NCBI RefSeq assembly: GCF_900090275.1
Contig: NZ_LT607755.1
Span: 1-64,000 of the forward strand
Direction: 5' to 3'
Source of the DNA: Micromonospora zamorensis
GTDB taxonomy: Bacteria > Actinomycetota > Actinomycetes > Mycobacteriales > Micromonosporaceae
DNA length: 64,000 bases
The position numbers were made by a program, and so were the translations under genes. Shown here one piece after another: positions 777 to 19,651 of the stretch. The first letter of the stretch is position 1; every line of letters starts with the position of its first letter. A model generated the notes under the pieces. The model was not told the origin of the DNA. It saw only the letters and a list, made by a program, of their open reading frames with translations, and ran no database searches.

Positions 777-778
777 GG

Positions 779-1648: not shown

Positions 1649-1753
1649 GTCAGGCGCACTCCATCCGCTCAGTTTAGACGTGCACCGGATCGGAGGCCGT
1701 GACACCCGGCGGCCCTGTCCCGGTCCGCCCGGGGCGCTGACTAGGGTCTGAGC

Positions 1754-2826
1754 ATGGTCGCAACTATCCGGTATGAGGACATCGTCAAGGTTCCGAAGGC
1801 CCTGCTGCACGACCACCTCGACGGCGGGCTGCGGCCGGCGACGATCGTCGACCTGGCCGCGGAGGTGGGCCACGAGTTGCCCGCCACCGATCCCGACGCG
1901 CTCGGACGCTGGTTCGCGGCCGCGGCCGACTCCGGCTCCCTGGAGCGCTACCTCGAAACGTTCGCGCACACCGTCGCGGTCATGCAGACCGCGCCGGCGC
2001 TGCGGCGGGTCGCCCGCGAATGTGCCCTGGACCTGGCCGCCGACGGGGTGGTCTACGCCGAGGTGCGCTTCGCCCCGAGCAGCACCTGGAGCAGGATCTC
2101 AGCCTGGACGAGGTGGTCGAGGCGGTGCTGGCCGGGTTCGCCGAGGGCACCGCCCAGGCCGTCGAGGCGGGCCTGAGCATCCGGGTGGGCACCCTGCTCA
2201 CGGCGATGCGGCACGCCGCCCGCTCCCAGGAGATCGCCGAGCTGGCCGTGCGCCACCGGGACGCCGGGGTGGTCGGCTTCGACATCGCCGGCGCCGAGGC
2301 GGGCTTCCCGCCCACCCGCCACCTGGACGCCTTCGAGTACCTGCAACGGGAGAACTTCCACTTCACCATCCACGCCGGTGAGGCGTTCGGTCTGCCGTCG
2401 ATCTGGCAGGCGATCCAGTGGTGCGGAGCGGACCGGCTCGGCCACGGGGTGCGGATCGTCGACGACATCGGCCCGGACGGCACGCTGGGCCGGCTGGCCG
2501 CGTACGTCAGGGACAAGCGGATCCCCCTGGAGCTGTGCCCCTCGTCGAACGTGCAGACCGGCGCGGTGGCCTCCATCGCGGACCACCCGATCGGTCTGCT
2601 GCGCGACCTGCGCTTCCGCGCCACAGTCAACACCGACAACCGGCTGATGAGCGGCACCTCCATGTCACGGGAGATGTCGCTGCTGGTGGAGACGTTCGGC
2701 TACGGCTGGAAAGAGTTGCAGTGGTTCACCATCAACGCGATGAAGAGCGCCTTCATCCCGTTCGACGAGCGACTGCGGATCATCGACGAGGTGATCAAGC
2801 CGGCGTACGCCAAGCTGATGGCCTGA
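1754..2826 (+). CDS. add: Adenosine deaminase (apparent frameshift near 2083)
   Basis: Deaminates adenosine and deoxyadenosine to inosine and deoxyinosine in purine salvage; about 357 residues. The zinc-binding pair is His19/His21 (LLHDHLDGG). Later come the catalytic HAGEAFG segment, the LGHGVRI histidine and the C-terminal Asp in [11 protein letters not shown]. The frame breaks at RFAPSST. Restoring one G near 2083 gives [18 protein letters not shown], the normal family sequence, so this is probably a sequencing error. The ATG at 1754 starts the conserved N-terminus, and TAGGGTCTGAGCATG upstream resembles a leaderless promoter. It faces the uridine kinase gene across a short hairpin. Confidence 0.9.
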
Positions 2827-2827
2827 C

Positions 2828-2844
2828 GGTCAGCCGTGCTGACC
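2828..2844. terminator. Short hairpin between convergent add and udk
   Basis: GGTCAGC-CGT-GCTGACC is a perfect 7-bp stem with a 3-nt loop, right after the add stop codon and 7 bp before the end of the opposing gene. There is no T-run, as is usual for actinomycete terminators. Its placement suggests a bidirectional terminator. Confidence 0.5.
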
Positions 2845-2850
2845 TGACCA

Positions 2851-3454
2851 TCAGCCGTGCGGGTGGCCGGCGAGCAGGCCGGCCACCCGGCGCAGCACCT
2901 CCCTGGCGCGGGCCGCCTCCGCACCCAACCCGGTCTGCCGACGCAGGATCGCGGGCTCGGCCCGGAGCAGCGCCACGCCGCGCCGGACCAGCACCCGGGG
3001 GGCCTTGCGCTGCTCGGACAGGTCCCGGGCGAGCCGGCGCAGGAAGGTCGCCCCGCGCGGACGGCGCAGCGGCGTACGCCCCAGCGAGCAGTCCGCGGCG
3101 ACGGCATTCCTCGACGATCTCGGCGGCGAAGATCCCTTCGGCCACGAAAAGTGGCGATCCGGCGACATCAAATGTCCGGGTGGCCACCCGTCGGTCTGCG
3201 CCGATCGCATAAACCGGCACATCGGCGCGGCCTTCCCGAGCAAGTCGGGCAATGATTTCCACAGCGGTGGGGGCATCCCAGGACTGCGGCGATTCCCAAT
3301 CCACCTGGCCGTTTCGTCGCGGCAACGTAGGGTCATCGCCGTCTTTGTAGAAGTCGTCCAGACAGAGCACCGGTAAACCGGTTTGCTGCGCTATGTACGA
3401 CTTTCCGGAGCCGGAAGGACCGGCGAGCAGGACAACGCGGTGCGGATGTTCCAT
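2851..3454 (-). CDS. udk: Uridine kinase-like P-loop kinase (apparent frameshift near 3070-3090)
   Basis: P-loop nucleoside kinase of the uridine kinase family, about 200 residues, expected to phosphorylate uridine or cytidine. The ATG at 3454 is followed by the Walker A motif AGPSGSGKS at residues 11-19 and by LCLDDFYKDGDD, the acidic substrate-site segment typical of the family. ADRRVATRTFDVAGSPLFVAEGIFAAE matches the segment around the second acidic motif. Around 3070-3090 the frame changes from GLLAGAYA to the frame that ends TFLRRLARDLSEQRK...HPHG, so one base seems lost or gained. It sits beside adenosine deaminase, consistent with nucleoside salvage. Substrate is inferred from family only. 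Confidence 0.75.
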
Positions 3455-3647
3455 TACCTTCAGTTACTCCGGCCAGACGGACTGCTATCAAATCGCATCA
3501 ACATCTCATCACACCTCCGGCCGGTGACAACCTGGGCTTTCTTCTTGTCGACCGGCGTGATGGAATCTCGGGGGTCCGACCCGCCGGGTCGGTCGCTGGG
3601 CGTTGCCCGGGGCAACGCGTTGAAGCTGTAATCGCGAGGGCGGTGTT

Positions 3648-6600
3648 GTGAGCAAACGGCCAAAGACGGCGGGCTCCTTCCTGTCGCGGCTGCGCCGGCC
3701 GGCCAGCCGGCTCCGGGACATGCCGATCTGGTCCAAGCTCGGTCTCATCATGATCGTGCCGACCATCGCCACGGTCGTGGTGGGCACCAGTGGTCTTGTC
3801 GACCACGTGGAGACGCTCAACAATGCCAACCGAGCCGGCGACCTGGCCAACCTGTCGAGCTATTCCGGCAGCCTGGTCGACAGTCTGCAGGATGAGCGGA
3901 CTGCCGCCGTGCTGCTGCTGGGGGCGGACGGGACGCAGCCGACGGCGCAGTACCAGGAGGCCTACAACCGGGTGACCTCCCGGGTGGACCGTGAGACGTC
4001 CCCCTACCGGCAGCAGCGTGCCGAGATCGAGGACCTGCCGGGCAGCCTGGAAGGTCTGCTCGACGGCATCGACCAGAACCTGCAGGACCTGTCGGGCATC
4101 CGCAGCCAGGTGTTCAACGGCAAGCTCGCGCTCACCGAGACCGTGCAGGCGTACGAGGGTCTGATCAGTGACCTGCTCGCCATCCGCGACTCGGCCACGC
4201 AGCTCGCCGGTAACAACGAACTGAGCGACCGGATGCGCGCCGCCGCGGCGGTCGCCCGCGAGAAGGAGTTCCTCGCCGCACGCCGGGTCGTGGTGCACCG
4301 CGCGCTGGGTGTGAAGGGCGGCAAGCGCCTCACTCCGGCGCTGCGCACCGACTACATCGCCAGTGGCACCGGCCAGCAGCAGGCGCTGCAGAGCTTCAAG
4401 GCCGTCGCCACCCCGGACGACGCGAAGTTCCACGACCAGACGGTCGCGGGCGGCGACCGCCGGGAGGCACAGAACTACACCGGCTGGATCGACGGCAACA
4501 CCACCGGCGACATGCGCAACGCGCCGTTCGGGCCGGACCAGTGGGAAGCCGCCATGACGGCCAACGCCAAGCTGATCCGCAACGTCGAGACCAAGCTCGA
4601 CGGCGAAGTGGTCGACGAGGCCAACAGTCTCCGCTCGGACGTGCAGCGCCAGGTCTTCCTGGAGACCGGCCTGCTGCTCAGCATGCTGTTGCTGGCCATC
4701 CTCTTCGCGTACCTGGTCGCCCGCTCCATGGCCCGTTCACTTCGTGAGCTGCGGCAGGGTGCGCTCTCCGTCGCCCAGTACGGCCTACCCCAGGCGGTTG
4801 CCCGACTGCGTGACCCGCAGGTCGTCGGGCAGCTCTCCCCGGTGCAGCTGGCCAACCAGATCGCCGAGCCACTACCGGTCCGCAGCCGGGACGAGTTCGG
4901 CCAGGTGACCGAGGCGTTCAACGCCGTCCACCTGGAAGCCGTCCGTACGGCCGCCGAGCAGGCGGCACTGCGCGCCTCCGTCGCGACCATGTTCGTCAAC
5001 CTGGCCCGCCGTTCACAGATCCTGGTCGACCGCCTCATCGGGCACCTCGACCGGCTGGAGCGCGGCGAGGAGGACCCGGACCGGCTGGCCGAGCTGTTCC
5101 AGCTCGACCACCTGGCCACCCGGATGCGCCGCAACGACGAGAACCTGCTGGTGCTCGCCGGTGCCGACTCCACCCGTGTGCAACGTGAGCCGGCCGCGCT
5201 CATCGACGTGCTGCGGGCCGCGCAGTCCGAGGTCGAGCACTACACCCGGATCGAGTTCGGCGTCATCGACCGCGACATCGAGGTCGCCGCGCACGCGGTC
5301 AACGACCTGGTGCACCTCGTCGCCGAGCTGTTCGACAACGCCACCGCGTTCTCTCCGCCCGACTCGCAGGTGATGGTCGAGGCCCGTCGGGTCGGCGACC
5401 GCTCCTCGCTCTACGTCGAGGACCGCGGCATCGGCATCAGCGCCGAGCAGTTGCACGACCTCAACGAGCGGCTCGCGACGCCGCCGCAGGTGGACGTCGC
5501 CGTCTCCCGGATGATGGGCCTGGTCGTGGTCGCCCGACTGGCGTCCCGGCACGGCGTCCGGGTGGAGCTGCGCCCCGGCTCCGACCGTGGCACCGTCGCG
5601 GACGTGACACTGCCCACCTCGGTGCTGGTGCCCCGGGCGCTCTCCGGTCGGGTGCAGCAGCCCCCGGCCCTGCCCGCAGCCGGTGGCCCCCAGCAGAACG
5701 GGCCCGCACCGGCCTTCGGCGCCCTGCCGGCGCTGGGCAACGGCCCTCGTCCGAGCGAGTCCGGCAACCAGGTCACTCTCGGCGGTCGGCCGTTCGAGCC
5801 CGCCTCGCGCAACGGTGCCGGCACCCCGCCAACTCCGGTGGCTACCGCTCGATGCCGGCCTGGTCCGACCTGACCGGCGCTGCCGGGACGAACGGCGTCA
5901 ACGGTGGTGACGGGTTCACCCCGCGGACCGCCAACGGCCAGCCGATCGACCCGCTGCCGCAGCGTCGCGCCGGGGACGACAGCCCGACCTCCGGCCAGCA
6001 GCCGTCGATTCCACGGCAGCTGCCGAGCAGCCCCGAGGCACACCCGTACTCGGCGCCGCCGGTCTCCGCGCAGCCCTACTCCGGCGCGCCGGTCTCCGCC
6101 TCGCCGGCCTCCGGCCAGCCGTACTCCGGGCAGCCCTACTCGGGTGCCCCGTACGGCGGCCCGCCGGTCTCTGCGGCCCCGGCCTCCGGGCAGCCGTACG
6201 CCGGTCCGCCGGTGTCCGCGTCGCCCGTGTCGGCGTCGCCGGCGTCCGGCCAGCCGTATTCGGGTCAGCCCTACTCGGTGCCGCCCGCCTCCAGCCAGTC
6301 GTTCGCCGGGTTCGCACCCCGGTCGGCCCGCCCGCGCAGGCGCCCAGCACCCCGCGCCGCCGGCCTGGCCGCCGGTGCCGGGTACCGACCGCGACGCTTC
6401 GGCGCCGCCGGTGCCCGAGCGGCTCGCCGCTGCCCTGGACATGACGACGGAGCTGCCGCGGGTGCCGCGACCCGGCGAACAGCCGGCCGCAGCAGCCCAG
6501 CCTCCGACTCGGCCATCGGCTCCTGCTCCGGCTCCGGCCCGCAGAAGAATCGGCCGGCCCCGCAGAATCGGCCGGCACCGCAGCAACCGCAGGCGCAGAA

Positions 6601-7261
6601 CCGCCAGCGCTACGCGGACGAGACGATGGAGCTGCCGATCTTCCGGGAGCTCGAGTCGGCTTGGTTCCGTACCCGCCGTCCGGGTTCGGAGGAAGCGGGA
6701 CCCGGCGCGCAGCCGGCGACGAACGGCGACTCCGCGACCCAGCAGTTCGCTACGGTCGAGGCCACCGGTCGGGCAGTCCACAAGACACCACCCGGGACGA
6801 CAGGTAACACACCGATGGCAGACACTCCGACGGCCGGAGGAGCGCCGCGGGACAACGGCTCCACAGCGAACGAGGGCGGTCGCCCGAGCGTCGCTGAGAG
6901 CCTGCCGAACCGCCGGCCCCAACCGCAGACCAACGGCTGGCAGACCGCTGCCGACGACGGCTGGCGTGCTGCCTCGGCGGCGGCCGGCGCGGTGCCGGTG
7001 AGCGAGACCACCACGACCGGCCTGCCGAAGCGCAAGCCGATGGCGCAGTTGGTGCCGGGCGCGGTGGAGAAGCCCACCACCTCGGTCCAGCGGCGCTCCC
7101 CGGAGGCGGTCCGTGGCCTGCTCTCCGCCTACCACCGGGCGTGCAGCGAGGGCGTAGCACCTCGGACAACCCGACCAGCCCGGAGGCGACTCCGGGAGGG
7201 CAATCCTCGCAGTCTGGCTCAGGCCGGTGGCCGGGAGCGGCAGAAGGAGCAAGAAGGATGA
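3648..7261 (+). CDS. Conservon-type nitrate-sensing histidine kinase (CvnA-like), several apparent frameshifts
   Basis: Membrane sensor kinase of about 1200 residues, first gene of a conservon-type operon. Order seen: transmembrane helix (LGLIMIVPTIATVVVG, residues 32-47), an extracellular helical NIT-type sensor, a second membrane segment (GLLLSMLLLAILFAYLVA), a HAMP-like linker, the phospho-acceptor region with QLDHLATRMRR, and an ATPase domain with N box ELFDNATAFSPPDS and G box VEDRGIGIS. A long Pro/Ser/Gly-rich tail follows, ending in LPKRKPMAQLVPG and RRSPEAVRGLLSAYHRG, which CvnA kinases share. The frame breaks near 5828, 6325, 6540, 7138 and 7230, always returning to sensible sequence; I read these as sequencing errors. 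The stop overlaps the next start (ATGA). GTG start at 3648. Confidence 0.85.
6050..6310 (+). repeat. Degenerate Pro-Tyr-Ser-Gly coding repeats in the kinase tail
   Basis: The kinase tail contains repeated units such as SGQPYSGQPYSGAP, PPVSASPVSASPASGQP and APASGQPYAGPPVS, encoded by imperfect direct repeats of about 15-60 bp. This is low-complexity, probably disordered, cytoplasmic sequence. Such repeats are prone to expansion, contraction and misassembly. Confidence 0.7.
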
Positions 7262-7738
7262 CAACTACGCAGGATCTTGGTTGGCTGCTGGCCAACTTCG
7301 CCGACCGGGTGCCCGGTGTCGCTCATGCGGTCGCCGTCTCGGCCGACGGCCTTCTCCTGGCGTCGTCACGGACCTGCCGCGCGACCGGGCCGACCAGCTC
7401 GCCCGATCTCCTCGGTCTGGTCAGCCTGACCAGGGGCAGCCGCTGCTTCGAGGAGCGCGGTGTTGCAGACCGTCGTGGAGATGGACAATGGCTTCCTGTT
7501 CCTGATGTCCATCTCGGATGGTCGTCCTTCGCCGTGCTGGCCGCCGCAGCTCTGACGTGGCCAGTCGGCTACGAGATGGCGCTGCTGGTCGACCGGGTGG
7601 GCGACGCACTGACTCCGCAGCCGCGTGCGGCTGCGGCATGCTGGCTGACGCCCCGCCGCTGATCGTGAGGTCGGCACCAACGCAACAACGACAACGACGG
7701 CTTCACCGGTGGAGCCGGTAACGGTACGAAGGAGGTGA
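7258..7738 (+). CDS. Roadblock/LC7-domain protein (CvnB-like), with several apparent frameshifts
   Basis: MglB-like roadblock protein, expected to act with the GTPase encoded two genes downstream. The N-terminus MTTTQDLGWLLANFADRVPG and then HAVAVSADGLLLASS are diagnostic. Later pieces in other frames (DLPRDRADQLA, VVEMDNGF, SFAVLA, VGYEMALLVDRVGDALTPQPR) cover the rest of the family, so at least five single-base errors are needed to read it through. The most plausible end is the TGA at 7736-7738, after NATTTTASPVEPVTVRRR, overlapping the next gene's GTG. That gives about 159 residues. The ATG at 7258 overlaps the kinase stop. Confidence 0.7.
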
Positions 7739-8117
7739 GCGGCGAGATGGCCGATCGTGACGAACCGACCGGAGCGTTGGTCCGTCCATACGCCGTGACC
7801 CGTGGCCGTACCCGTCCCGGCTCGACATCGCGCTGGAGGCGCTCGTCGAGACGACGGTGCGCGGCCGCACCGCTGCCAGTGGCAACGGTGGTGGCCGCGA
7901 ACACCAGTACATCGCCGCGCTGTGTGACGGACGCGTGCAATCGCTCGCGGAGATCGCGGCGCGGCTGCAGCTCCCGCTCGGTGTGGCCGGGTGCTCATCG
8001 CCGACATGGCGAGGACGGCCTGGTCGCGGTCCACGAGCCGACCATCCTGGACGACTCCGACGACGCGGTGGGCACTGAACTGCTGGAGAGGTGCTGAGTG
8101 GACTTCGCAGGCTCTGA
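7735..8117 (+). CDS. DUF742 protein (CvnC-like), with apparent frameshifts
   Basis: Third gene of the conservon-type operon, about 127 residues, DUF742 family. The start reads MSGEMADRDEPTGALVRPYAVTRGRTRP, with GTG at 7735 directly after GGAGG. The middle is in another frame (YIAALCDGRVQSLAEIAARLQLPLGVA, the winged-helix-like core), and the end returns to DGLVAVHEPTILDDSDDAVGTELLER. The expected family ending VLSGLRRL lies in a third frame to TGA 8115-8117; an alternative in-frame stop is at 8097. Family members are small partners of the roadblock and GTPase proteins at the membrane; their biochemical role is poorly known. Confidence 0.7.
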
Positions 8118-8697
8118 CATGTCGCACCGCCGCCGAACCCGAGCGCCGCGTGACGTCGGCGAAGATCGTTATCGCCGGTGGATTCGGCGTCGGTAAGACG
8201 ACGCTGGTCGGCTCGGTCTCGGAGATCACGCCGCTGACCACCGAGGCCATCATGACCTCCGCTGGCGTGGGCGTCGACGATACCCGGCAGGTGCCGGGCA
8301 AGACGACGACCACGGTGGCCATGGACTTCGGCCGGATCTCGATCGACCGTGACCTGATCCTGTACCTGTTCGGTACGCCGGTCAGACCCGATTCTGGTTC
8401 ATGTGGGACGAACTGGTTCGGGGTGCGATCGGCGCGGTCGTGCTGGTGACACTCGCCGGCTGGCCGACTGCTTCGCGGCGATCGACTTCTTCGAGCACCG
8501 ACGCCTCCGTACCTGGTGGCGATCAACTGCTTCGACGGGATGCAGTACCACGACCCGCAGGACGTTCGGACGCCTTGGCGATCTCGAGCGACGTGCCGTG
8601 GTGGCCTGCGACGCCCGTAACGGGAGTCGACGAAGCACGTGCTGATCTCGCTGGTCGAGTACGTGCTCACCATGCGCGCGCGCCCGCCCCGGCCTGA
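8098..8697 (+). CDS. Conservon GTPase (CvnD-like, ATP/GTP-binding), with apparent frameshifts
   Basis: Small Ras-like/MglA-like GTPase, about 199 residues, last gene of the operon. The P-loop is KIVIAGGFGVGKTTLVGSVSE, followed by the family segment TTTVAMDFGRISI and the switch strand LILYLFGTP. The rest (FWFMWDELVRGAIGAVVLV, RRLADCFAAIDFFE, VAINCFDGM, DALAISSDVPVVACDAR, LISLVEYVLTM) is spread over three frames, so several single-base errors are likely between 8130 and 8660. GTG 8098 begins VDFAGSDM and overlaps the upstream gene by about 20 nt, as is common in these operons. GTP cycling with the roadblock partner is family knowledge. Confidence 0.75.
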
Positions 8698-8884
8698 TCG
8701 GGACGCCGCACCCCGGTGGTGGCTCAGGCCGCCACCGGGAGCACTACCCTGCTCGCCGACGCCCCTACGTCGGCGCGCGCTCTACGCCGTCTCCTGAGGC
8801 CCTGGAAGCCACCGGCCCCCGCACCCTGGGCCGTTGAGCTGCGGGCTTCGAGAGGCGGCGTTGCCGCGTCCAGGGGCACGTCTG

Positions 8885-8934
8885 CACACGCGACAGCGCC
8901 CTCAGTCAGCTGACTGAGGGCGCTGTCGCGTGTG
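8885..8934. terminator. Perfect 50-bp palindrome between the conservon and the opposing gene
   Basis: All 25 bases on the left are matched on the right with no loop; the centre lies between 8909 and 8910, in CAGTCAG|CTGACTG. It starts 188 bp after the GTPase stop and ends 8 bp before the stop of the minus-strand gene. The obvious role is a bidirectional transcription terminator. I see no gene between 8698 and 8884. Confidence 0.75.
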
Positions 8935-8941
8935 ACGAGGG

Positions 8942-11446
8942 TCAGGACTGGTAACCGGCGGAGCGGTACTCGTACTCCCGGTCGTCGTCGCGGTCGCCGT
9001 GGTCCCGGCTGAAGTCCCAGCCACCGGCCGCCTCGCGGCCGGGTCGACCACCCACCGCGAAACCGCCGATCTCCTGGCCGCGACGCCAACCACGGAAGTA
9101 GCCGGTGGTGTTCCGCGCGAGGCTTGCCGCATCGCGCTATCCGCAATGGACGCTCCTCGCGCAGCGGGGAACCAGGGACCAGGTTGGCCTGAGGCACGCG
9201 CTTCGGCAGCCCGGCGTTGGTCTCGGCGCCGACCGCGGGGCGGGCGGCCTGCTCTGCGGCCTGCCAGCCGGTGTCGGCCGTGGTCGACCAGTCCAGGTCG
9301 GACTCCTCGGCCGACGAACCAGGCCGACTTGGCCTGCGCGAAGAGCAGGTCGCCGTCACCCTCGTCGGCGACCGGTGGCGGACGGTGCTCGACCGGCGGC
9401 GTCCGGCGCTCCAACGGAGGGGTCCGGCGCTCCATCGGCGGCGTCCGCTGCTCCAGCGAGGGCGTGCGAGGCTCCAATGAGGCCGCGACTCCGGCCCTCG
9501 GCGGCGGTGCTCTGGCACGGTCGGGCCGAGCGGCGGTCGGCCGCCGCGAGCGGCCAACTCCCGGTCGACCAACCGCAGCGGCGGGGTCTCCAGGTGCGCG
9601 TCCGCAGACGGGTTGAGCCCCTCGCGCAGCGCCCGGTCGGCCAGTGGCGGTGGCTCCACCAGTCGCAGCATGGGCGGCTCCTGCGGCAGGTCGTCCGCCA
9701 ACCAGGGCGGGGTGACCCGACCGTCGGCCCGACCCGGGTCGGTCGGGGCCTCGATGCCGCGGCTGCCACCGTACGGGTAGGCCACCGGGTTGTTCGGCGA
9801 GCTGTCGGCCGGGTCCTCCGGGCTGTTGACCAGCGGCCAGTTGGCGCGGGAACCGGGGGGTGCGGCGGCCTCCTGGCCAGGACGGGGATCGGCACCGGGA
9901 TGCTGAGATCGGTGGCGCTGAACCCGCCCGTGGGTGGCTCGTCCACCGGGCGTTGCAGATGGCTCGGCCGGGGCTCGCCGTTCGTCTTGGGGCGGGAGGA
10001 ATGACCGTCCGCTGCCGTTCGGCCCCGCGCGTTGTGATCGCGGCGGTGGTCAGCGTCGGCCGGAACGGCTCGCCCGCCTCGGCCGGAGGCACCATGCCGC
10101 GCTGTGCCGGTGCGATCGGGGTGATCCCGGGCGGCGGGGGCGGCGGCGAGGAGACCGGTCGGTTGGTCGGACCGTCGATCCGGCTGGGCGCCGGCTCGGC
10201 GCGGCCGGGAAGCGTGGACGACGGCGGCTTGGCCATGGCGGCCGGGGCCATCGGTGCGGGCGCGACCGGCGGCGGCGTGACCGGAGCCGGGGCGACCGGG
10301 GGCGGCCCGAGTGGGCGGGGCGACGCGAGCGGCGCGTTACCGGGGATCGGCTCGGGGCGGCTGCGTCGCCCGACGGCGGTGCGGGGTCGGCGGCCGGGGT
10401 GGGCCGGAGCGACCGCAGCCCGGCGCCGGTGCCGGCCAGCCCGGTCGGCTCACCGGCTGGCTCGCCACGGCGGGCGCCGTTGCCGGCCATCCCGGCCAGC
10501 TCGCCGACCGACTCGCCACGGCGGGCGGCGGCACGGCGGCCGGGTGCCTGGGCAGGGGGCGGTCACCCGCGAGCCGAGCGCGCTGACCAGGGCCTCACAG
10601 CCTGCGTCGCAGGCCCGCACCGAAGCGACGGCCTGGCGGACGTCTCGGCCACCGCGGAGGTGAGCGCCCGGTTGACCGCGGCGCGCCGCGGCGTTTCGGA
10701 GATGGCGACCCGCAGAGCGGTGACCGCCTCGTTGATCTCGTCGGCGTCGGCCACCCCGTCGGGCGGCGAGGTGCGCGGCGATGGCGTCCGCCGCGACCGA
10801 CACCTCGCGGCCCCGGGCGACGGTGCCGCCGAGCATGCCCGGCTCGGGCAGCGCGTCCAGCACCGCCAGCGAGACCGGCTCGGCCGGGTCCGGGTATGCA
10901 CGCAGAGCTGCCGGGTAGAGCTCGCGCAGGACCTCGCGCAGGGCCACGGCGGCGGAGTGTCGGCCGGTGGCCAGCGCGGCGTGCGCGGCGAGCACCTGCT
11001 TGTAGCCGGCGAGATCCCGGGGTGCCGGCAGGGTGACCGCGGAGAGCGCGCCCGCCTGCAACGCGCGGGGCCAGGCCGACGGCCCGTCGTTCGGCCGGAG
11101 GCGACTGCATCTCCTCCAGGGAGTCGTCGTCGGCGAACCGCTCGGCGAAGTCGTCCACCGAGTCGTCGTCGGCGATCGCCAGGGGCCGACCCGCCGCGCT
11201 CAACAGCGAGATGACCGTGTGGTCGTCGCTGTCGGCGGCGATGGCCGCACCGCTCGGCCCGCCCGACCGCTCCACGAGCAGCGCGACGAGCTGGGCGTAG
11301 CCAGCGGCCTCGTCGCTGATCTCGCAGACATGCAGCAGACGGCCTGCGTCGTCGACCACAGCGGACGTCAGCGTCGATCCGGCGGAGGCCGGTCGGTCAG
11401 CCGGATCCGCCGAGGCCAGACCGCAGTAAACGCGCACGAGCGCCAC
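8942..11446 (-). CDS. Degenerate IS110-transposase-like domain fused to a CvnA-like tail, with apparent frameshifts
   Basis: About 830 residues. The N-terminal part has the layout of the IS110 DEDD domain: VRVYCG, then VVDDAGRLLHVCEISDEAAG, then SLLSAAGRPLAIAD, and later a segment like the IS110 C-terminal half (LREVLRELYPAALRAYPDP...VLDALPEP). The catalytic acidic residues are not in their places (GLA where IS110 has GID). A Pro-rich middle leads to SAWF, TADTGWQAAEQAA and LPKRVPQANLVPGS near 9170-9340, closely resembling the tail of the neighbouring histidine kinase. It ends EYEYRSAGYQS at 8942. GTG 11446 has AGGAGGA upstream. Frame changes occur around 9130, 9340, 9800, 10450, 10760 and 11060. 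Not an active transposase; role unknown. Confidence 0.65.
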
Positions 11447-11509
11447 GGCGTCGTCCTCCTCCCGGGACAGGTCTTTCCTCTGCCAGCAACTGATGCTCCC
11501 CGGTACGGG

Positions 11510-12436
11510 TCAGTCGCGCCAGTCCACCACCGCAGAGATCTTGCCGACAATGGTGCGCCAACCCAAACTCGCGGTCTGCGCACCGATCTTCTTCAGCCGC
11601 CGCCGACCCATGAAAGCGCCGATCCCACCGTTGGCGGTGGCACGCAGCGCCTCGTCCAGGTCGTCGAGGCTGGAGCCGGCGGAGAGCATGTCGAGTACCG
11701 CAGGCAGCCGCAATGCGTACGAGAGGTCACGCGCGACCTCGCCGGCCTCGATCAGCAGGGTCGAATCCCAGGAGTCGTGCCCGCCGCGCAGGTTCTCCAC
11801 GACGAGGTCGAGCTCGTAGGTGTCCTCGTCGAGGGGCGCGATATCCGCGGGCTCCACCCGTTCGGACAATTCATTCCAGCTGTCCAGTTGGGACAGATCG
11901 TTTGGCGCACCGGACCGGATGAAACTGACCAACGACTCGGGGGTCTTGAACAGCAGCAGCTTGCCCTGGTTGCTGAGGAAGACCGGCACCTCCTCGTCGT
12001 CCGCCTCGTCCGTGGCGTCCTCGTCGGCCTCGGCCTCGTCGTCGGCCGCGTCGGTGTCGGTGGCGCCGTCGCGTCGGCGGCGCTTCGACTCGTCCTCGTC
12101 GTCGGCGAACTCCTCGGCCAGGTCCTCGTCGAGGATGACGACGGTCTCGTCGTCCTCTTCCTCCTCGATCACCTGACGTCGGGCGAGGAACGGGTCGTCC
12201 AGGTCGCGCTCGGTCACGTCGGTCGGGGTCAGCGAGCTGGCCGGCCGGTATGCCCGCAGCGTGAAGCCGGTGCCGGCGGGCAGGGCGATCTCCACCGGGT
12301 CGATGCGCAGCTCGTCCCAGAGTGCACGGTCGACCGAGGCCGAGGGGCCGTCGGTCTCATCTGGCTCGACCGCGCCGGTGGTGTCGTCGAGCTCGGGCTC
12401 GTCGGCGTCGGGCCGTTGGGGCGACTGGCGGGCCAC
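11510..12436 (-). CDS. Conserved acidic actinobacterial protein of unknown function
   Basis: 308 residues. The N-terminal 150 are very acidic and probably disordered (runs of Glu/Asp such as VIEEEEDDETVVILDEDLAEE). The C-terminal half is folded and well conserved in look: VPVFLSNQGKLLLFKTPESLVSFIRSGAPNDL, then LDLVVENLRGGHDSWDSTLLIEAGEVARDL, ending LGWRTIVGKISAVVDWRD. GTG 12436 is chosen because GGAGG lies 6 nt upstream; the frame is open for 23 codons before it. The next gene on the same strand begins 64 bp downstream, so the two may be co-transcribed. I do not recognise a function. Confidence 0.75.
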   Translation of the reverse strand: MARQSPQRPDADEPELDDTTGAVEPDETDGPSASVDRALWDELRIDPVEIALPAGTGFTLRAYRPASSLTPTDVTERDLDDPFLARRQVIEEEEDDETVVILDEDLAEEFADDEDESKRRRRDGATDTDAADDEAEADEDATDEADDEEVPVFLSNQGKLLLFKTPESLVSFIRSGAPNDLSQLDSWNELSERVEPADIAPLDEDTYELDLVVENLRGGHDSWDSTLLIEAGEVARDLSYALRLPAVLDMLSAGSSLDDLDEALRATANGGIGAFMGRRRLKKIGAQTASLGWRTIVGKISAVVDWRD

Positions 12437-12615
12437 GCTGACCTCCGTGTGCTTCGGGTTGCCCACCCGCCGGGGTCTCTGACCGGCGAGTGACTCTGGG
12501 CACATACCCTAGTCGGCGGCCCTGGGTGACCGATGCCCGCACCCCGGTGGCCGGCTGGCGCACGGATTCGACCTGCTGGTGGTGGGCGCTGGCGATCTGA
12601 CCGTTCGACAAGTAG

Positions 12616-12625
12616 CGTAGCTACG
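12616..12625. promoter_or_regulatory. Perfect palindrome before padR, candidate operator
   Basis: CGTAGCTACG, a 10-bp perfect palindrome, ends one base before the ATG of the PadR gene. Its position over the likely transcription start suggests autorepression. Confidence 0.45.
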
Positions 12626-12626
12626 T

Positions 12627-12968
12627 ATGAAGGCCCAGGCGTTGCACGGCCATCTCGACGCTCTGCTGCTCGCCGTTCTCGAACAGGGCGCGCTGCACGG
12701 CTACGCCATCATCGAGGCGTTGCGCGCGCGCAGCGACGGCACTCTGGATCTGCCTACCGGCACCATCTATCCGGCGTTGCGTCGGCTGGAACGCGCCGGG
12801 CACGTGGCGAGCACCTGGAGCACCGTCAACGGCAGGGAACGACGGACGTACGAGCTCACCGATTCCGGCCGGGGAGCGTTGGCCGGGGAGCGCGCGGGTT
12901 GGCGCGACTTCCAGCTGACCGTCGGCCGGTTCCTCGACCCCGGCAGCCCGCCCACCACCCCGGCCTGA
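12627..12968 (+). CDS. PadR-family transcriptional regulator
   Basis: 113-residue winged-helix DNA-binding protein, the short PadR form that is little more than the DNA-binding domain plus one dimerisation helix. Typical sequence: LLLAVLEQGALHGYAIIEALR, then LPTGTIYPALRRLERAGHV and the wing RERRTYELTDSG. PadR proteins usually repress a neighbouring membrane or efflux gene. The convergent gene 51 bp downstream encodes a permease-prefix membrane protein, a common PadR partner, though normally it lies on the same strand. Confidence 0.85.
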   Translation: MKAQALHGHLDALLLAVLEQGALHGYAIIEALRARSDGTLDLPTGTIYPALRRLERAGHVASTWSTVNGRERRTYELTDSGRGALAGERAGWRDFQLTVGRFLDPGSPPTTPA

Positions 12969-13019
12969 CCCCGGTCGAGCTGGCGACCACCGGCGGGACC
13001 GGGGCACCGGCGACGTGGC

Positions 13020-13724
13020 TCAGTGGGCCACGCTGGTGAGCGACTCCGCTCGGCGGGCGGTGGCCTGCAGCCAGCCGCGCACCGCACGGGCCAGCGAGAA
13101 GTACGCGCCGCCCACCAGCACCGCACCGATGATCATCGGTGGCCAGCGCAGCGCGTCGTCCCAGAGAGTCATCGACCAGGCGAACAGGGCGCAGCCGGCG
13201 ATCATGGCGAGAGCAAGCATGGCGGTCAGGCCGGCGCCCACCGCGCGTTGCACCAGGGCCAGACCCGGACGTGTCGAACGGGCGCTCGCCGCGACCACCA
13301 GCAGACCGGCCACCGCGAGCAGCAGCGAACCCATCCAGATCCAGTCGACCGAGCTGGCGAGCAGCTGGTAGCCGGCCGGTGGACGGGGGCCGCTGCTCCA
13401 GCTCGACCCCCGCCAGGTCAGATCCCCGGCGACCACCCCGACCCCGGCGATCGCCAGCATCCGCAGGGAGAGCCCGCGCAGAGCGCCCACCGCCAGCTCG
13501 GCCTGCCAGGAGGGAAGGACCTGCGCCGGCGAGCCGAACTCGACCACGGCCCGGCGCTGCGCCTCCGTGGACGGCACACCGCTCTCCCGGTACGCCTCCA
13601 CGGCGTCCAACAGCCCGTGCCGGGCCTCGGTGAGCAGGTCGGACTTGAGTCGCGCCGGCCCCTGCAACCGGGCGGCCAACTCCCGCAGGTGCTCGTCGAC
13701 CAACACGTCCTCACGGTGCGGCAT
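13020..13724 (-). CDS. Permease-prefix-domain (HAAS-like) membrane protein
   Basis: 234 residues. The N-terminal 80 form the helical permease-prefix signature (ELAARLQGPARLKSDLLTEARHGLLDAVEAY, then EAQRRAVVEFGSPAQVLPSWQAELA). About four membrane helices follow (LRMLAIAGVGVVAG, WIWMGSLLLAVAGLLVVAA, VGAGLTAMLALAMIAGCALFA, MIIGAVLVGGAYFSLA). Proteins with this prefix are commonly encoded beside PadR regulators, and here the PadR gene is the convergent neighbour. Biochemical role unknown. ATG start at 13724. Confidence 0.75.
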   Translation of the reverse strand: MPHREDVLVDEHLRELAARLQGPARLKSDLLTEARHGLLDAVEAYRESGVPSTEAQRRAVVEFGSPAQVLPSWQAELAVGALRGLSLRMLAIAGVGVVAGDLTWRGSSWSSGPRPPAGYQLLASSVDWIWMGSLLLAVAGLLVVAASARSTRPGLALVQRAVGAGLTAMLALAMIAGCALFAWSMTLWDDALRWPPMIIGAVLVGGAYFSLARAVRGWLQATARRAESLTSVAH

Positions 13725-13793
13725 GGCACCACCCTGCCACGGGTCAGGGAGTCCTGACGTCGGGGAGAACCCTGGTCCGTCCCCGAGCCCCGG

Positions 13794-15583
13794 TCAGGGG
13801 GCGAGGGCCAGGTAACCCCGCTCGGCCGCAGCCTGGAGCAGCCACTGGTCCCGGTACCAGCCCGGGGCGGCGACCAGGTCGGCGTGCCGGCCGCGCTGGA
13901 TCACCCGGCCGCCGTCGAGGACGACGATCTCGTCCAGCTCGGCCAGCCCGCTGAGCCGGTGGCTGATCAGCAGCACCGAGTGCCCGGCGGGGGTGGCGGC
14001 GAGAGCGGACGCGAGCACCGCGTCGGCGGCGGCCGGATCAAGACCTTCGGTGGGCTCGTCGAGCACCAGCACCGGCGGCGCGGCGAGCAGGGCCCGCGCG
14101 AGCGCCAGCCGCTGCCGCTGGCCACCGGAGAGCTGCCCGCCCTCCTCGCCGACCAGCGTGTCCCAACCCGCCGGCTGGGCGCGTACCCAGTCCAGCAGGC
14201 CCGCGGCGGCGGTGGCCGCCGTCAGTGCCTCCTCGTCGGCCCCGGCCCGCCCGAGCAGCAGGTTCTCCCGCACCGTGGCGTGAAAGACGTACGCCTCGGC
14301 CAGCAGGCCGCCGACCGCCCGCGGCAGTGCCTCCTCGGCGTACGCCGAGAGGTCGTGACCGTCGAGGGTGACCCGCCCGGACACCGGTTGGACGGTGCCG
14401 GTCAGGACGGCGGCCAGGGTGCTCTTGCCGGCGCCGCTCGGGCCGACCACCGCGATCCTCCGCCCCGGCGGCAGGTCCAGGCTGACGCCGTCGAGGGCGG
14501 GTGCCGCACCGGCCCGGTACCGCACTGTCACGTCGACGAAGCGCAGCTCGTGGGGGCCGACCAGGTCCGTCATACCGGTCGTGGGCGGGGAAGCCGGCGT
14601 GCCGGCGTCCAGCAGGTCGGCCACCCGGGCCAGACCGGGCCGCAACTGCGTCCACTGCCGGGCCGCCGTGACCAGTGCCAGCGTCACCTCGACGGCGGCC
14701 AGCGCGCCGACGGCCAGGACACCCACCAGCACCCCGACACGTCGGCGGCCAGCGCTGCCAGCACCACCGCCGCGGCGGTCAGCCCGGCGGTCAGCACCCC
14801 GGCCGCGTCCACCGCGAACCCGGTGGCGGCCAGCCGACGTTCCAGGCGGGCCAGCCGGCGGGCCCGCTGCGCTGCGGCACGCAGTGTGACGTCGGTGGCT
14901 CCGAACGCGGCCAGGTCGGCTGCGCCGTGGGTGAGGTCGATCGCGTCGGTGGCCAGTGCGCCGCGCAGGGGTGCCACCTGGGACGCGCTGCGGCGGGTGA
15001 CAGCGGTGGCCAGAGCGGGCAGCGCCACTCCGGCGACCAGCAGCCCGACGGCGAGCGCACCGGCGGCAGGTGGTGAGATCAGCGCCGCCACGCCGACCGC
15101 CAGCACACCGACCAGGGCCGCCGCCGACCCAGGGACCAGCACACGCAGCAGCAGGTCCTGGACGGCCTCGACGTCGGAGACCAGCCGGCTCAGCACGTCC
15201 CCCGACCGGTGCGCGGCGCCACGCCGGGCGGCGAGGGTGGCGAAGACCCGGGCCCGGACGTCGGTGATCATGCGGAGCACCGCGTCGTGCCCGGCGAGCC
15301 GTTCGGTGTAGCGGAACACGCCACGGCTGATCGCCAGCGCCCGGACAGCGACGATCGCCACTGTGAGCCGGTCCAGCGGAGGCTGGCCGGCGGCGCTCAT
15401 CAACAGCCAGGTGGCGGTGGCCATCAGGGCGAGCCCGGCGAACTCGGTGGCGGCCGCGAGCAGCCCGGCACCGACCAGCCGACCCAGGTACGGGCGGGCC
15501 AGTCGCAGCACGGCGCGCTCGGCGGCGGTCCGCCCGCCCGATGCCACGCCGGCGACCGCCTCCGGTCCGTGTTCCGTGCTCAT
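13794..15583 (-). CDS. cydC: ABC exporter CydC for cytochrome bd assembly (apparent frameshift near 14735)
   Basis: Half of the heterodimeric CydDC exporter, which moves thiols such as glutathione or cysteine outward and is needed to assemble cytochrome bd. About 597 residues. The membrane domain includes VAIVAVRALAISRGVFRYTERLAGHDA, typical of CydC. The ATPase has Walker A GPSGAGKST, signature [16 protein letters not shown] and Walker B VLVLDEPTEGLD. The frame breaks within a run of C at about 14733-14736; adding one base joins AADVSG to VLVGVLAVGALAAVEV. The ATG overlaps the cydD stop by 4 bp (ATGA). Last gene of the cyd operon. Confidence 0.85.
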
Positions 15584-17256
15584 CGGGTCGCCTTCCCGGT
15601 CGGTTCGGGCGTCAGCTCGGTGACCCGACCGTCCTCGACCCGCAGGATCCGGTCGGCGTCGGCGAGCAGCGCCGGTCGGTGCGCGACCAGGAGCGCGGTG
15701 CGCCCGGCGACCAGGCGGCGGGTGGCGTCGAGCACCACCGCCTCGGCCGCGGTGTCCAGGCGGGCGGTGGGTTCGTCGAGCAGCACCACCGGGGCGGACC
15801 GCAGAAATGCCCGGGCCAGCGCCACGCGCTGCCGCTGCCCGCTGGACAGCCCGTGGCCGCGTTCGCCGAGCAGGGTGTCCAGGCCGTCCGGCAGGCCGGC
15901 CACCACGTCGTCCAGAGCGGCGTCGTGCACCGCCGCGGCGAGCGCGTCGGGCGTGGTGTCCGGTGCGCCGAGCCGGATGTTGTCGGCCAGCGAGGCGGCG
16001 AAGAGATGGGCCCGCTGCGGCACCCAGGCGAGTTGTCGACGCCAGGCGTCCGGGTCGGCCGTGGCGAGGTCGACCCCGTCCACCGTGATCCGGCCGCTGG
16101 TCGGGGTCACGAAGCCGAGCAGCAGGCCGAGCAACGTGCTCTTGCCGGCGCCGCTGGGCCCGATGATGGCGATCCGTTCGCCGGCTCGGATGGTCAGGGT
16201 CACGTCACGCAGGGCGGTGGTCCGCTCGTACGCAACGGTCACCCCCTCGAACCGGATGTCACGTCGCGCGTCCGGGACGGTGGCGCCCTCGGCGGCCCGG
16301 GGCGCGGTGGGCGCGGCCGAGATGGTCAGCGCCTCGTCCAGCGCGGCGAGCCCCTCCATGCTGGCGTGGAAGCGGCTGCCGGCGGCCCGCAGTGGCAGGT
16401 ACGCCTCCGGGGTGAGCAGCAGCACCAGCAGCGCTGTCTGCAGGGCCAGCCCGCCGCCGAGCAACCGGATGCCGACCGGCACCGCGACCAGTGCCACCGA
16501 GAGGGTGGCGACCAGCTCCAGCACCAGCGCGGAGAGGAACGCGATCCGCAGTGTCTTCATGGTGGCGACGCGGTGCCCGTCGGCCATCCGGCGCACCACC
16601 TCGGTCTGTGCCCGGGCCCGCCCGAACGCGCGCAGCGTGGGCAACCCGGCGACCATGTCCAGGAAGTGCCCGCCGAGCAGCGAGAGCCGCCGCCACTGCC
16701 GTTCGGTGGCGGCCTGGGCCTGCCAGCCGAGCAGCGCGCCGAAGACCGGGATCAGCGGCAGGGTCACCGCGATGATCACCGCCGAGCTCCAGTCGGCGAA
16801 GACGACCCGGGCGAGCACCGCCAGCGGCACGGTGACGCTGAGCACCAGTTGGGGCAGGTATCCGGTGAAGTAGGCGTCCAGCGCGTCCAGCCCGCGCCCG
16901 GCCAGGGTGGCGATCTGACCGGCCCGCTGCCCGGCCACCCAGCCAGGACCATGGCGGCCGACCGCGCCGAGCAGGTCGGCCCGCAGCGTCGCCTTGACCG
17001 TGGCGGCGACCCGCGCGGAGACCGTGCCCTGTGCCCAGACCAGCGCCGAGCGGGCAGCGACCGCGACCATGAAGGCGCCCAGCGCCGGCCGATCCAGTCG
17101 ACCGTCGATCGCCGTGGCCAGCACCGCCGCGAGGGCGGTGGCCTGCGCCACGATCAACCCGGCGGCGAGCACACCGAGGAGCGCGAGCACGGCAAGATCG
17201 CGCCGGGCCGCAGGGACCCGGCGCAGCAGACGCGGGTCGAACGGACGGCGTTTCAC
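15580..17256 (-). CDS. cydD: ABC exporter CydD for cytochrome bd assembly
   Basis: 559... residue-class membrane-ATPase fusion, 558 residues, partner of CydC. Membrane domain: DLAVLALLGVLAAGLIVAQATALAAVL, then the CydD-like GPGWVAGQRAGQIATLAGRGLDALDAYFTGYLPQL. ATPase: Walker A GPSGAGKSTLLGLLLG, WVPQRAHLF, signature LSSGQRQRVALARAFL, Walker B VVLLDEPTARLD. The GTG at 17256 overlaps the cydB stop as GTGA, which settles the start; the frame stays open upstream inside cydB but reads as shadow. Translation is probably coupled through cydB-cydD-cydC. Confidence 0.88.
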   Translation of the reverse strand: MKRRPFDPRLLRRVPAARRDLAVLALLGVLAAGLIVAQATALAAVLATAIDGRLDRPALGAFMVAVAARSALVWAQGTVSARVAATVKATLRADLLGAVGRHGPGWVAGQRAGQIATLAGRGLDALDAYFTGYLPQLVLSVTVPLAVLARVVFADWSSAVIIAVTLPLIPVFGALLGWQAQAATERQWRRLSLLGGHFLDMVAGLPTLRAFGRARAQTEVVRRMADGHRVATMKTLRIAFLSALVLELVATLSVALVAVPVGIRLLGGGLALQTALLVLLLTPEAYLPLRAAGSRFHASMEGLAALDEALTISAAPTAPRAAEGATVPDARRDIRFEGVTVAYERTTALRDVTLTIRAGERIAIIGPSGAGKSTLLGLLLGFVTPTSGRITVDGVDLATADPDAWRRQLAWVPQRAHLFAASLADNIRLGAPDTTPDALAAAVHDAALDDVVAGLPDGLDTLLGERGHGLSSGQRQRVALARAFLRSAPVVLLDEPTARLDTAAEAVVLDATRRLVAGRTALLVAHRPALLADADRILRVEDGRVTELTPEPTGKATR

Positions 17257-18260
17257 CAGTACACCGGTGCCCTGCCGTCGGTCCGTCCTCGGAAAACCCA
17301 CCAACACATCGCCTGGAAGCCTAGTAGGGCCGGAAGTAGCGGCAGCGCCACCCAGCCGAGGAGCCGCAGCGTCGGTGCGCTCGCAGCGGCGTCGGTCACT
17401 GTCAGCGAGGCGCCCGGGTCGGTCGTGGAGACCAGCACATAGGGCCAGAGAGCCGCCCCGACCAGCACCACCGGCAGCGCCAGGGCCGCGCCGGTTGCGG
17501 CCAGTGCCCACCCCGGCCGCCGCCGCGCCAGCGCCGCGCGGGCCGCCAGCAGCGCCGCCGCGAGCAGCACCGGCAGGAGTACGGCCACCGCCGGCCGCTG
17601 GACGGCGTCGCGTACCCGGGAGGAGAGCAGGCCCACGACGGTGGCCAGGGCGACCGCGGTGAGCGCCACCGGCACCAGTCGGCGGGCCGTGCGGCCGACC
17701 ACTGCGGCGGCGTCGGCCGACAGACGCAGCGCGAGGAAGGTCGCTCCGTGCACCGCGACCAGTGCGACCATGGCCAGCCCGACGGTGGCTGCGAACGGGG
17801 TGGCCAGGTGCGACACCCCGGCGACGTGCCCGTCGGCCTGACGGGGCACGCCCTGGAGCAGCGCGGCGAGCACCACCCCCCAGCCCACTGCGGCGAGTGC
17901 GCTGCCGATCATCACGACGCGGTCCCAGCGCGCGCGGATCCGTTCGTCGGCGGGCCGGCTACGCAGTTGCACCCCGACGGTGACCAGGATGACGCCGACC
18001 AGGGCACCGGCCACGGCCGGATAGCAGCCGGAGAGCAACTCGCCCTCCAGCACCGGGAACGCACCGAAGAGGATGCCCACGGCGGCCACCAGCCAGACCT
18101 CGTTGCCGAGGAAGAACGGGCCGAGCGCGGTGAGCGCCTCCCTCCGCAGAGCGGGGCCGCCACCGCGGGCGAGCAGCAGCCCGACGCCGTAGTCGTAGCC
18201 GGCGAGCACCAGGTAGCCGGTGAAGAAGAGGCCGAGCAGGGCGTACCAGGCGAGGTCCAC
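17253..18260 (-). CDS. cydB: Cytochrome bd-type quinol oxidase subunit II
   Basis: Membrane subunit of the bd oxidase, 335 residues with about eight or nine helices. It begins LAWYALLGLFFTGYLVLAGYDYGVG, the CydB quasi-signature. The usual GPVWDGNE(T/V)WL motif reads GPFFLGNEVWL at residues 47-57, so the Trp-Asp pair of the canonical motif is missing. The C-terminal part has SLTVTDAAASAPTLRLLGWVALPLLPALLGFQ, matching the family. GTG 18260 has GAGGAG 6 nt upstream. It lies 26 bp after cydA and overlaps cydD by 4 bp. Confidence 0.85.
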   Translation of the reverse strand: MDLAWYALLGLFFTGYLVLAGYDYGVGLLLARGGGPALRREALTALGPFFLGNEVWLVAAVGILFGAFPVLEGELLSGCYPAVAGALVGVILVTVGVQLRSRPADERIRARWDRVVMIGSALAAVGWGVVLAALLQGVPRQADGHVAGVSHLATPFAATVGLAMVALVAVHGATFLALRLSADAAAVVGRTARRLVPVALTAVALATVVGLLSSRVRDAVQRPAVAVLLPVLLAAALLAARAALARRRPGWALAATGAALALPVVLVGAALWPYVLVSTTDPGASLTVTDAAASAPTLRLLGWVALPLLPALLGFQAMCWWVFRGRTDGRAPVYW

Positions 18261-18286
18261 GGTGTTCTCCTCAGTTCCTCAGTGCC

Positions 18287-19540
18287 TCAGACGAGCGCGG
18301 GTTCGGGGTGGGTCGACTCACTCGGCGGCGCTGGTGGGCGGCCGAGTGCCGGATCGGCCGCGCCCCGCGCCGCGTGCCGGGCGAGCAGCACCCAGTTGGT
18401 GACGGCGAGGGTGCCGAGCAGCAGGCTGAACCCGATCAGCGAGGCGAGCATCACCGGTGCGCCGACCGGGGACACGGCCTGCTCGGTGGGGAGCAGCCCG
18501 TACGCCACCCAGGGCTGGCGGCCGACCTCGCGGGCGATCCAGCCGAGGACCACCGCGACGAACGGCAGCGGCAGGGCGAGCAGGACCAGCCAGAGCGGGA
18601 AGCGCAGCCGGATGATCCAGTCCCGGAAGAGCAGGGGGAGCAGCAACCAGACGCAGCCGAGGGTGAAGCCGATCAGGATCATGAAGCCCAGCCCGACGCT
18701 GGCCAGCACCGGTGGCGTGTAGTCGCCGGGGCCGAACCGGGTGGTCCAGTCGGCGATCAGCGCTTGCGCCTCCGGGCTCTGGCCGCCGAACTTGGTCGGC
18801 TGCACGCCGCCGACCGGGCCGAACTGGGCGAAGCCGAAGCCCTGCACCAGGCTGATCGCCAGCGCCGAGGTGACCAGGCCGATCCGCAGCGAGGTGCGGA
18901 AGAGCACGAAGTCGGGAGTACGCCGGATCAGGTGCCAGGCGCTGACCGCCGCCATCAGCATCCCGCCTACCAGCAACGCGGCCGAGACCACGTGCCCGAA
19001 CGCCATGCCGAGGCTGGGGTTGGAGAGCAGCGCGCCAAAGTCGGTGAGGTGGGCGATGCCGTCGCGTACCTCGTAACCGACCGGGTGTTGCAGCCAGGAG
19101 TTGGCCACCATGATCCAGAACGCCGAGGCGTACGCGGTGATGGCCACGCCCCAGAGCAGCGCGAGATGGACACCCTTACCGAGCCGGTGCCAGCCGAAGA
19201 TCCACATCCCGAGGAACGTGGATTCGAGGAAGAACGCCACCAGCGTCTCGATGGCCAGCGGCGCGCCGAAGACGTTGCCGACGTAGCGCGACAGGCCACT
19301 CCAGTTCAGCCCGAACTGGAACTCCATCACGATGCCGGTGGCGATGCCGAGCACGTAATTGATCACGTAGAGCTGACCCCAGTAGCGGGTCAGCCGCTCC
19401 CACTTCGGGTTGCCGGTGAGCACCCAGGCGGTCTGCATCCCGACCAGCAGGGTGACCAGCCCGAGCGTGACGACCACGAAGAGGAAGTGGATCGAGGTGG
19501 TGGTGGCGAACTGCAGGCGGGCGAGGAGCAGGGTGTCCAT
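18287..19540 (-). CDS. cydA: Cytochrome bd-type quinol oxidase subunit I (divergent)
   Basis: Quinol-oxidising, haem-binding subunit, 417 residues with about nine helices. Recognised residues: His18 (SIHFLF, haem b595/d ligand position), Glu98 and Glu106 in AIETLVAFFLESTF, His183 (MAFGHVVSAA, haem b558 ligand position) and the GRQPW motif. Two canonical features differ. The short Q loop reads QPTK250-FGGQS, so the Glu expected five residues after the Lys is Ser. The segment that normally carries the axial Met (fRxMVG) reads PVLASVG. It is therefore a divergent bd-type oxidase; haem content and cyanide response cannot be predicted. First gene of cydABDC, with a 200-bp upstream region that carries BlaI-type dyads. 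Confidence 0.8.
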   Translation of the reverse strand: MDTLLLARLQFATTTSIHFLFVVVTLGLVTLLVGMQTAWVLTGNPKWERLTRYWGQLYVINYVLGIATGIVMEFQFGLNWSGLSRYVGNVFGAPLAIETLVAFFLESTFLGMWIFGWHRLGKGVHLALLWGVAITAYASAFWIMVANSWLQHPVGYEVRDGIAHLTDFGALLSNPSLGMAFGHVVSAALLVGGMLMAAVSAWHLIRRTPDFVLFRTSLRIGLVTSALAISLVQGFGFAQFGPVGGVQPTKFGGQSPEAQALIADWTTRFGPGDYTPPVLASVGLGFMILIGFTLGCVWLLLPLLFRDWIIRLRFPLWLVLLALPLPFVAVVLGWIAREVGRQPWVAYGLLPTEQAVSPVGAPVMLASLIGFSLLLGTLAVTNWVLLARHAARGAADPALGRPPAPPSESTHPEPALV

Positions 19541-19581
19541 GGCCGGCTCTCCGTAGTGTTGGCTCCCTTGTCGTAGCCACC

Positions 19582-19651
19582 CTACACGTAGTTTCTCTAC
19601 ACGTCTGTCTACTACGTGACGTCGTAGAAGACGGTACTACAGCACGTAGTA
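19582..19651 (-). promoter_or_regulatory. Cluster of CTAC/GTAG dyads upstream of cydA, candidate BlaI operators
   Basis: The 200-bp region before cydA holds repeated CTAC and GTAG half-sites. The best dyad is TACTAC-N5-GTAGTA at 19635-19651, about 95 bp before the cydA start. Others are CTAC-N8-GTAG at 19612-19627 and CTAC-N2-GTAG at 19582-19591, plus a CTACACGT half-site between them. The 19635 site has the same CTAC-N5-GTAGTAG form as the dyad before blaI. BlaI/MecI repressors are known to bind TAC...GTA-type dyads. Control of cydABDC by the adjacent BlaI is inferred. Confidence 0.55.

Follow-up and report, generated by a model that had tools for sequence, protein, structure and literature searches.

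We analyzed the first 64,000 nucleotides (the window) of the single contig of Micromonospora zamorensis, which has 7,095,932 bases. Here, we describe a minus-strand gene at window positions 8942-11446 whose product joins a degenerate IS110 transposase domain to the tail of conservon kinases. This fusion gene is convergent with a plus-strand conservon (cvnA-cvnB-cvnC-cvnD). Conservons are widespread in actinobacteria, and their kinases have a conserved LPxR tail. We found no published description of the fusion protein in the open-licence PMC literature. The features of the locus are as follows.

8942..11446, minus strand: the IS110-derived/kinase-tail fusion gene, broken by insertions and deletions (indels) in the window but intact in another copy
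10548..11446, minus strand: its N-terminal domain, residues 1-299, with a predicted inactive RuvC-like fold (about 4-140) and a Nop5/IS110-like helical region (about 141-297)
9409..10547, minus strand: its proline-rich, low-complexity linker, residues 300-690, of genus-variable length
9077..9375, minus strand: its CvnA-type tail, with DLLIF, SAWF, W..ADxGW.AA, GLPKRVPQANLVPGS (9168-9212), and GYFRGWRRG
8885..8934, no strand: a perfect 50-nucleotide palindrome between the convergent genes, which forms a strong hairpin (z -8.6) without an obvious T-run
11510..12505, minus strand: a SatS-like gene directly upstream of the fusion gene, encoding 331 amino acids with an acidic middle part (NF050072, E 2e-10, 40 bits; the curated cut-off is 700)
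3648..7261, plus strand: the conservon kinase cvnA, with NIT (E 8.6e-42), HAMP, HATPase_c, and the LPxR tail; frameshifted in the window but intact (1206 amino acids) in the other copy
7258..7648, plus strand: cvnB, Roadblock/LC7
7735..8117, plus strand: cvnC, DUF742
8098..8697, plus strand: cvnD, a Ras-like GTPase (Pfam ATP_bind_1)
1..20548, no strand: a deletion-rich assembly duplicate of contig positions 7064887-7085520

Integrity of the fusion gene

In the window, the fusion gene is split across several frames. It starts with a GTG at 11446 and stops with a TGA at 8942, exactly the ends that had been given in the original prediction, which was made from the window's sequence alone. Window positions 1-20548 duplicate contig positions 7064887-7085520 with 6 mismatches and 65 gaps (98 bases in total), and at most of these gaps (49 of 65) the window copy has lost a single base. 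Within the fusion gene, there are 22 indels between the two copies. In the other copy, the gene is a single intact open reading frame (ORF) of 848 codons on the minus strand (contig 7073872-7076418), which maps exactly onto 8942-11446. So, the two halves are one gene, as had been supposed.

Past window position 20548, the sequence continues as it does in relatives for 38 of the 48 long named loci, versus 0 of 48 for the copy at the contig's end. Also, a 2-kb piece from the contig's final 10.4 kb (the piece that our comparison of the contig end covered) is an exact copy of 7016762-7018761, which is 71 kb upstream. Because of these two results, we conclude that the contig ends are mis-assembled and that window 1-20548 is an error-rich assembly duplicate. 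(The last 10.4 kb, 7085521-7095932, diverges from the continuation that is seen in relatives.) A true segmental duplication of the locus was considered and rejected, as the continuations and the exact repeat favor an artefact. Since the frameshifts in the fusion gene lie in the error-rich copy, they are assembly errors, and other frameshifted genes within 1-20548 should first be read in the copy at the contig's end.

IS110 ancestry and loss of catalysis

The broken pieces of the window copy have no match in Pfam, and neither does the intact protein at E ≤ 10 (including NIT, HAMP, HATPase, P450, GAF, and Nop). A sequence search of the PDB found no relative (best E 0.27), and a Foldseek search gave no match at E ≤ 0.001. 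We identified residues 1-299 as homologous to IS110 transposases by three kinds of comparison.

First, PF01548 matches 10 of 19 N-terminal domains from the Micromonosporaceae (the family of the source genome) at E ≤ 0.1, with a best E-value of 1.3e-10. Second, a comparison of the N-terminal domain's profile with an IS110 profile scored 99.2% (E 1.2e-19, 263 columns), versus 0.1% for a negative control. Third, for both of the structural models that were predicted, the best fold match was to IS621 and ISCro4: a RuvC-like fold is followed by helices. The absence of any IS110 match, which by the original prediction's own account would have refuted it, did not occur. In a tree of the 19 family members and 17 IS110s, a single branch with support of 100/100 splits the two sets, which argues that the domain has one origin.

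We next consider catalysis. We surveyed the positions of the catalytic DEDD tetrad in 270 of the 271 relatives that we collected (one, at under 380 amino acids, was dropped). None of them has the complete tetrad. The first D is present in none (three have a gap there), and the E at the second position is kept in just one protein, with D instead in 257. At the third position, D is found in 17 proteins, of which 16 are among the 18 from the Actinocatenispora group, and at the fourth position, D is found in 40, all among the 46 from the Glycomyces group (these groups reflect the search that retrieved each protein, rather than checked taxonomy, and they include near-copies). Such uneven retention of the third and fourth acids would be expected after independent decay from an active ancestor.

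The Tnp domain, which has the catalytic serine (PF02371), seems to be missing as well. It has no match in the intact protein (E ≤ 10) or in 9 full-length relatives (E ≤ 0.1), and the alignment of the N-terminal profile to IS110 stops before it. Because the catalytic acids are lost, as had been predicted, and the catalytic-serine domain is not found, we conclude from the sequences that the protein is no longer a recombinase.

The N-terminal domain is also acidic: its median isoelectric point (pI) is 4.7 (n = 19, with one member at 6.6), versus a median of 9.3 for the 17 IS110s. This would count only mildly against binding to nucleic acids, because the five IS110s with the most similar sequences have less basic values too (pI 5.4-8.8).

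The gene does not look like a mobile element either. Among 21 genomes sampled from the family, 19 have a single match to the N-terminal domain. The other two are the source genome, with its assembly duplicate, and a genome whose second match sits at a PF01548 place. We rejected a mobile IS110 element given the single locus and the fixed neighbors (see below). No Rfam family matches window 3000-13500 (no dedicated search for a bridge RNA was made), and the gap upstream of the fusion gene is 65-69 nucleotides from the last codon of the SatS-like gene.

Overall, the protein resembles IS110 transposases (IS621, ISCro4; PF01548 + PF02371) in having a RuvC-like fold, with the motifs in the same order, followed by a coiled-coil region. 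Unlike them, it lacks the catalytic tetrad, is encoded at a single locus, is acidic, and has a linker and a kinase tail where the Tnp/serine domain would be. This is a clear case in which a transposase of the IS110 (bridge-RNA) type lost catalysis and became a cellular gene.

There are 867 database matches to the protein at E ≤ 0.001. Among the best 120 of these, which are the ones listed, NCBI calls many of the relatives a transposase, and other database names include "IS110 family transposase" and "IS110-like N-terminal domain protein." It follows that many proteins in public genomes that are named transposase are misnamed.

The kinase-type tail and the conserved locus

The original prediction also stated that the end of the protein repeats the tail of the neighboring kinase. 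Both of the strings that it quoted are present, and a profile of fusion tails matches a profile of kinase tails (99.2%, E 1e-19, 77 columns), versus 0.1% for a control comparison of fusion tails to IS110. The two sets of tails have these blocks in the same order: [I/L]F....AWF; W....D.GW.AA; T..GLP[KR]R.P...LVPG; and R......Y.RG. When 23 tails (11 fusion and 12 kinase, with the first row lacking the last block) are aligned together, 13 columns are invariant, including the G, L, P, R, and P of GLPxRxP. We conclude that this is the LPxR tail of conservon (CvnA-type) kinases (PMC4316618). The fusion protein differs from those kinases in that it has an IS110-derived N-terminus and no match to NIT, HAMP, or HATPase. 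In a full-length model of a homolog, the linker and the tail are of low confidence, and a short helix lies at each of the D.GW and Y.RG blocks.

Besides the fusion gene, the genes of the source genome with this tail are the adjoining kinase and, at 2.35 and 5.49 Mb, further kinases of the conservon type. (These lie within contig 2343001-2359000 and 5478001-5496000.) Two other long ORFs have weaker matches. More broadly, the tail was found in 40 of the 118 genomes of a class sample, counting the source genome and one congener. We checked 28 loci from outside the family (those class-sample matches that had a locus). A kinase catalytic region is present within the short locus for 21 of them and within an extended locus for 6 more. 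The remaining locus is cut upstream by a contig edge, and then come genes that we read by eye as conservon genes. So far as these loci go, the tail is a kinase feature, and the fusion gene is the only non-kinase that we found with it; our literature searches turned up no account of the tail on a non-kinase.

The fusion gene itself occurs across the family. The N-terminal domain is present in all 21 of the sampled Micromonosporaceae genomes, from 20 genera; seven of these matches are weak (E 1e-38 to 6e-9, 29-47% identity). The nearest relatives of the gene are in Micromonospora, and the named homologs include Actinocatenispora, Natronoglycomyces, Glycomyces, and Allocatelliglobosispora. Of 20 family loci, 18 have a complete gene with the tail at its end. 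(The other two are cut by a contig edge.) In a sample of 81 genomes from the order, all 9 genomes from the family have the full-length domain. Just 6 of the other 72 have matches, all of them partial, and those that we read are IS110. In a sample of 148 genomes from the class, 9 genomes have matches, and 7 of these lie outside the family. The nine loci outside the family that we read encode ordinary IS110 proteins or fragments; a tenth was read over its first 60 residues, and the matches in two further genomes lie outside this set. The original prediction described the gene as a chimera beside a conservon. It is indeed a fusion, but it did not arise locally, as every family genome that we sampled has it. 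Since the LPxR tail here sits on a family-wide protein without a kinase domain, the tail could be studied as an independent module.

The neighbors of the fusion gene are conserved as well. Named genomes have 114 confirmed places, of which we examined the best 80 (nearly all are Micromonospora, and some are two pieces of one strain). The SatS-like gene adjoins the fusion gene in all 69 of the testable loci, and in all 55 that are testable for it, a conservon kinase is encoded convergently 1.6-3.9 kb downstream. Among 20 loci from other genomes, the downstream side is visible in 18, and the kinase is present in 15 of these (in one case, as a C-terminal part at the contig edge). The same fusion is found beside conservons in other genomes.

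We compared the intact gene to 58 orthologs. The median ratio of nonsynonymous to synonymous substitution rates (dN/dS) is 0.127 for the N-terminal domain, 0.296 for the linker, where constraint is weakest, and 0.101 for the tail; these pairs are not independent, as one sequence is common to all of them. The fusion gene is under purifying selection. Together with the single origin, the single locus, and the presence across the family, this bears out the idea of a domesticated gene.

A possible role in conservon signaling

We propose that the fusion protein is probably an unrecognized part of the conservon G-protein signaling system. Specifically, an IS110 half, now dead, and the LPxR tail of a conservon kinase were joined once, near the root of the family, to give what may be a dimeric scaffold that docks on the conservon module. 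We put the odds of this scaffold at a little under even (about 0.47). It builds on the homology of both parts, the catalytic loss, the conservation, the synteny, and the predicted fold. The dimerization, the docking partner, and the direction of the effect (to activate, block, or bridge) are inferred by analogy.

The first analogy is to IS621, whose coiled coil mediates dimerization (PMC11208158). The IS110-derived half (RuvC and the coiled-coil region) would form dimers in the same way. The second analogy is to archaeal Nop5 and eukaryotic Nop56 and Nop58, which also have a RuvC-like N-terminal domain and then a long helical domain (the latter is predicted in our case). According to a passage in PMC12045711, the RuvC-like domain of Nop5 is inactive and recruits fibrillarin, and the dead RuvC domains of the fusion protein could similarly be a platform for binding proteins. 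Unlike in the Nop proteins, we found no counterpart of the C-terminal RNA-binding part and no match to the Pfam Nop family, and the nearest relatives by sequence are IS110s.

The linker, which is probably disordered, would carry the kinase-type tail, and the tail would dock on whichever conservon protein receives CvnA's own tail. We favor CvnB or CvnD. Both CvnA9 and CvnD9 interact with CvnB9 and CvnC9 (Komatsu et al., described in PMC8510531), so CvnB or the CvnD complex would be the simplest target for a protein with this tail. The fusion protein would then serve the convergently encoded G-protein module as a partner or a brake that is soluble and does not depend on the sensor.

Extra proteins are encoded beside other conservons, namely CvnE (P450), CvnF (GAF), and mycobacterial MfpA, which is a known conservon accessory (described in parts of PMC13015309 and PMC4316618). 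The fusion protein differs from these in its fold and in carrying a kinase-type tail, and its gene is convergent instead of lying within the operon. The setting differs too: CvnE and CvnF accompany CvnA proteins without the NIT sensor (a passage in PMC13343842), whereas the adjoining CvnA keeps it. We view the fusion protein as a new accessory of a known signaling system, built from a known transposase family.

Two observations weigh against the scaffold. The SatS-like neighbor, which the scaffold does not account for, is more constant than the kinase: in the 20 loci from other genomes, it is present in 19. And in the loci of three genomes (L145, L153, and L154), the adjacent kinase is absent. 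Each of those three genomes does have a further ORF elsewhere, recognized by its tail (at a distance of 176 kb, on a different contig, and at a distance of about 15 kb, respectively).

A more specific form of the scaffold seems rather unlikely. It holds that the dead RuvC/coiled-coil dimer supplies LPxR in trans, as a portable docking element that is perhaps arginine-finger-like and that would set the state of CvnD independently of the kinase; an RNA-guided transposase would have become a protein scaffold by a Nop5-like route, and the protein would represent a new class of component in actinobacterial G-protein systems. The arginine of LPxR is notable since the Group 2 MglA/MglB lack an arginine finger, but the part of PMC4316618 that makes this point is cautious about the role.

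The fusion protein might instead act downstream, as an output of the conservon GTPase, with an IS110-derived domain that still binds nucleic acids. MfpA, which is encoded beside a mycobacterial conservon, is a precedent: it interacts with GTP-bound MfpB (a passage in PMC4316618) and links its GTPase to DNA gyrase. Also, the domain derives from a nucleic-acid enzyme, its predicted fold is kept, and an unknown DNA-binding output protein is considered in part of the Cvn8 paper (PMC13343842). However, the domain is acidic (even if the nearest IS110s are less basic than most), PF02371 is absent from the intact protein and the 9 relatives, and the 65-69 upstream nucleotides leave little room for a bridge-RNA-like stretch. 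We consider an effector of this kind to be unlikely.

We have still less faith in a pure decoy, which the original prediction had suggested. It would do nothing but titrate the partner of CvnA's tail, thereby weakening the kinase's input. The tail has the same blocks in the same order and lies 1.6-3.9 kb from the kinase, and the R of LPxR is among the residues that are invariant in both sets of tails. But a pure decoy would have no need for a folded domain of 300 residues under strong constraint (dN/dS = 0.127).

Even less plausible, in our view, is that the fusion protein acts mainly together with the SatS-like product, for example as an export-chaperone scaffold, and that whatever its tail contacts is unrelated to the adjoining conservon. 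SatS is a chaperone of the SecA2 pathway (PMC6333443), and the SatS-like gene adjoins the fusion gene in every testable named locus (69 of 69) and is found in 19 of 20 others, more often than the kinase. However, the match to SatS is partial, at 40 of 700 bits, and elsewhere in the loci that we checked, the tail belongs to kinases.

Finally, a decaying transposase pseudogene or a local assembly chimera without function describes the frameshifts in the window, and the many relatives named transposase by NCBI might seem to fit, but we rejected this given the intact second copy, the 867 database matches, the purifying selection, the fixed synteny, and the single origin, and it is very improbable.

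As for the palindrome at 8885-8934, it is probably a transcription terminator that is shared by the convergent genes.
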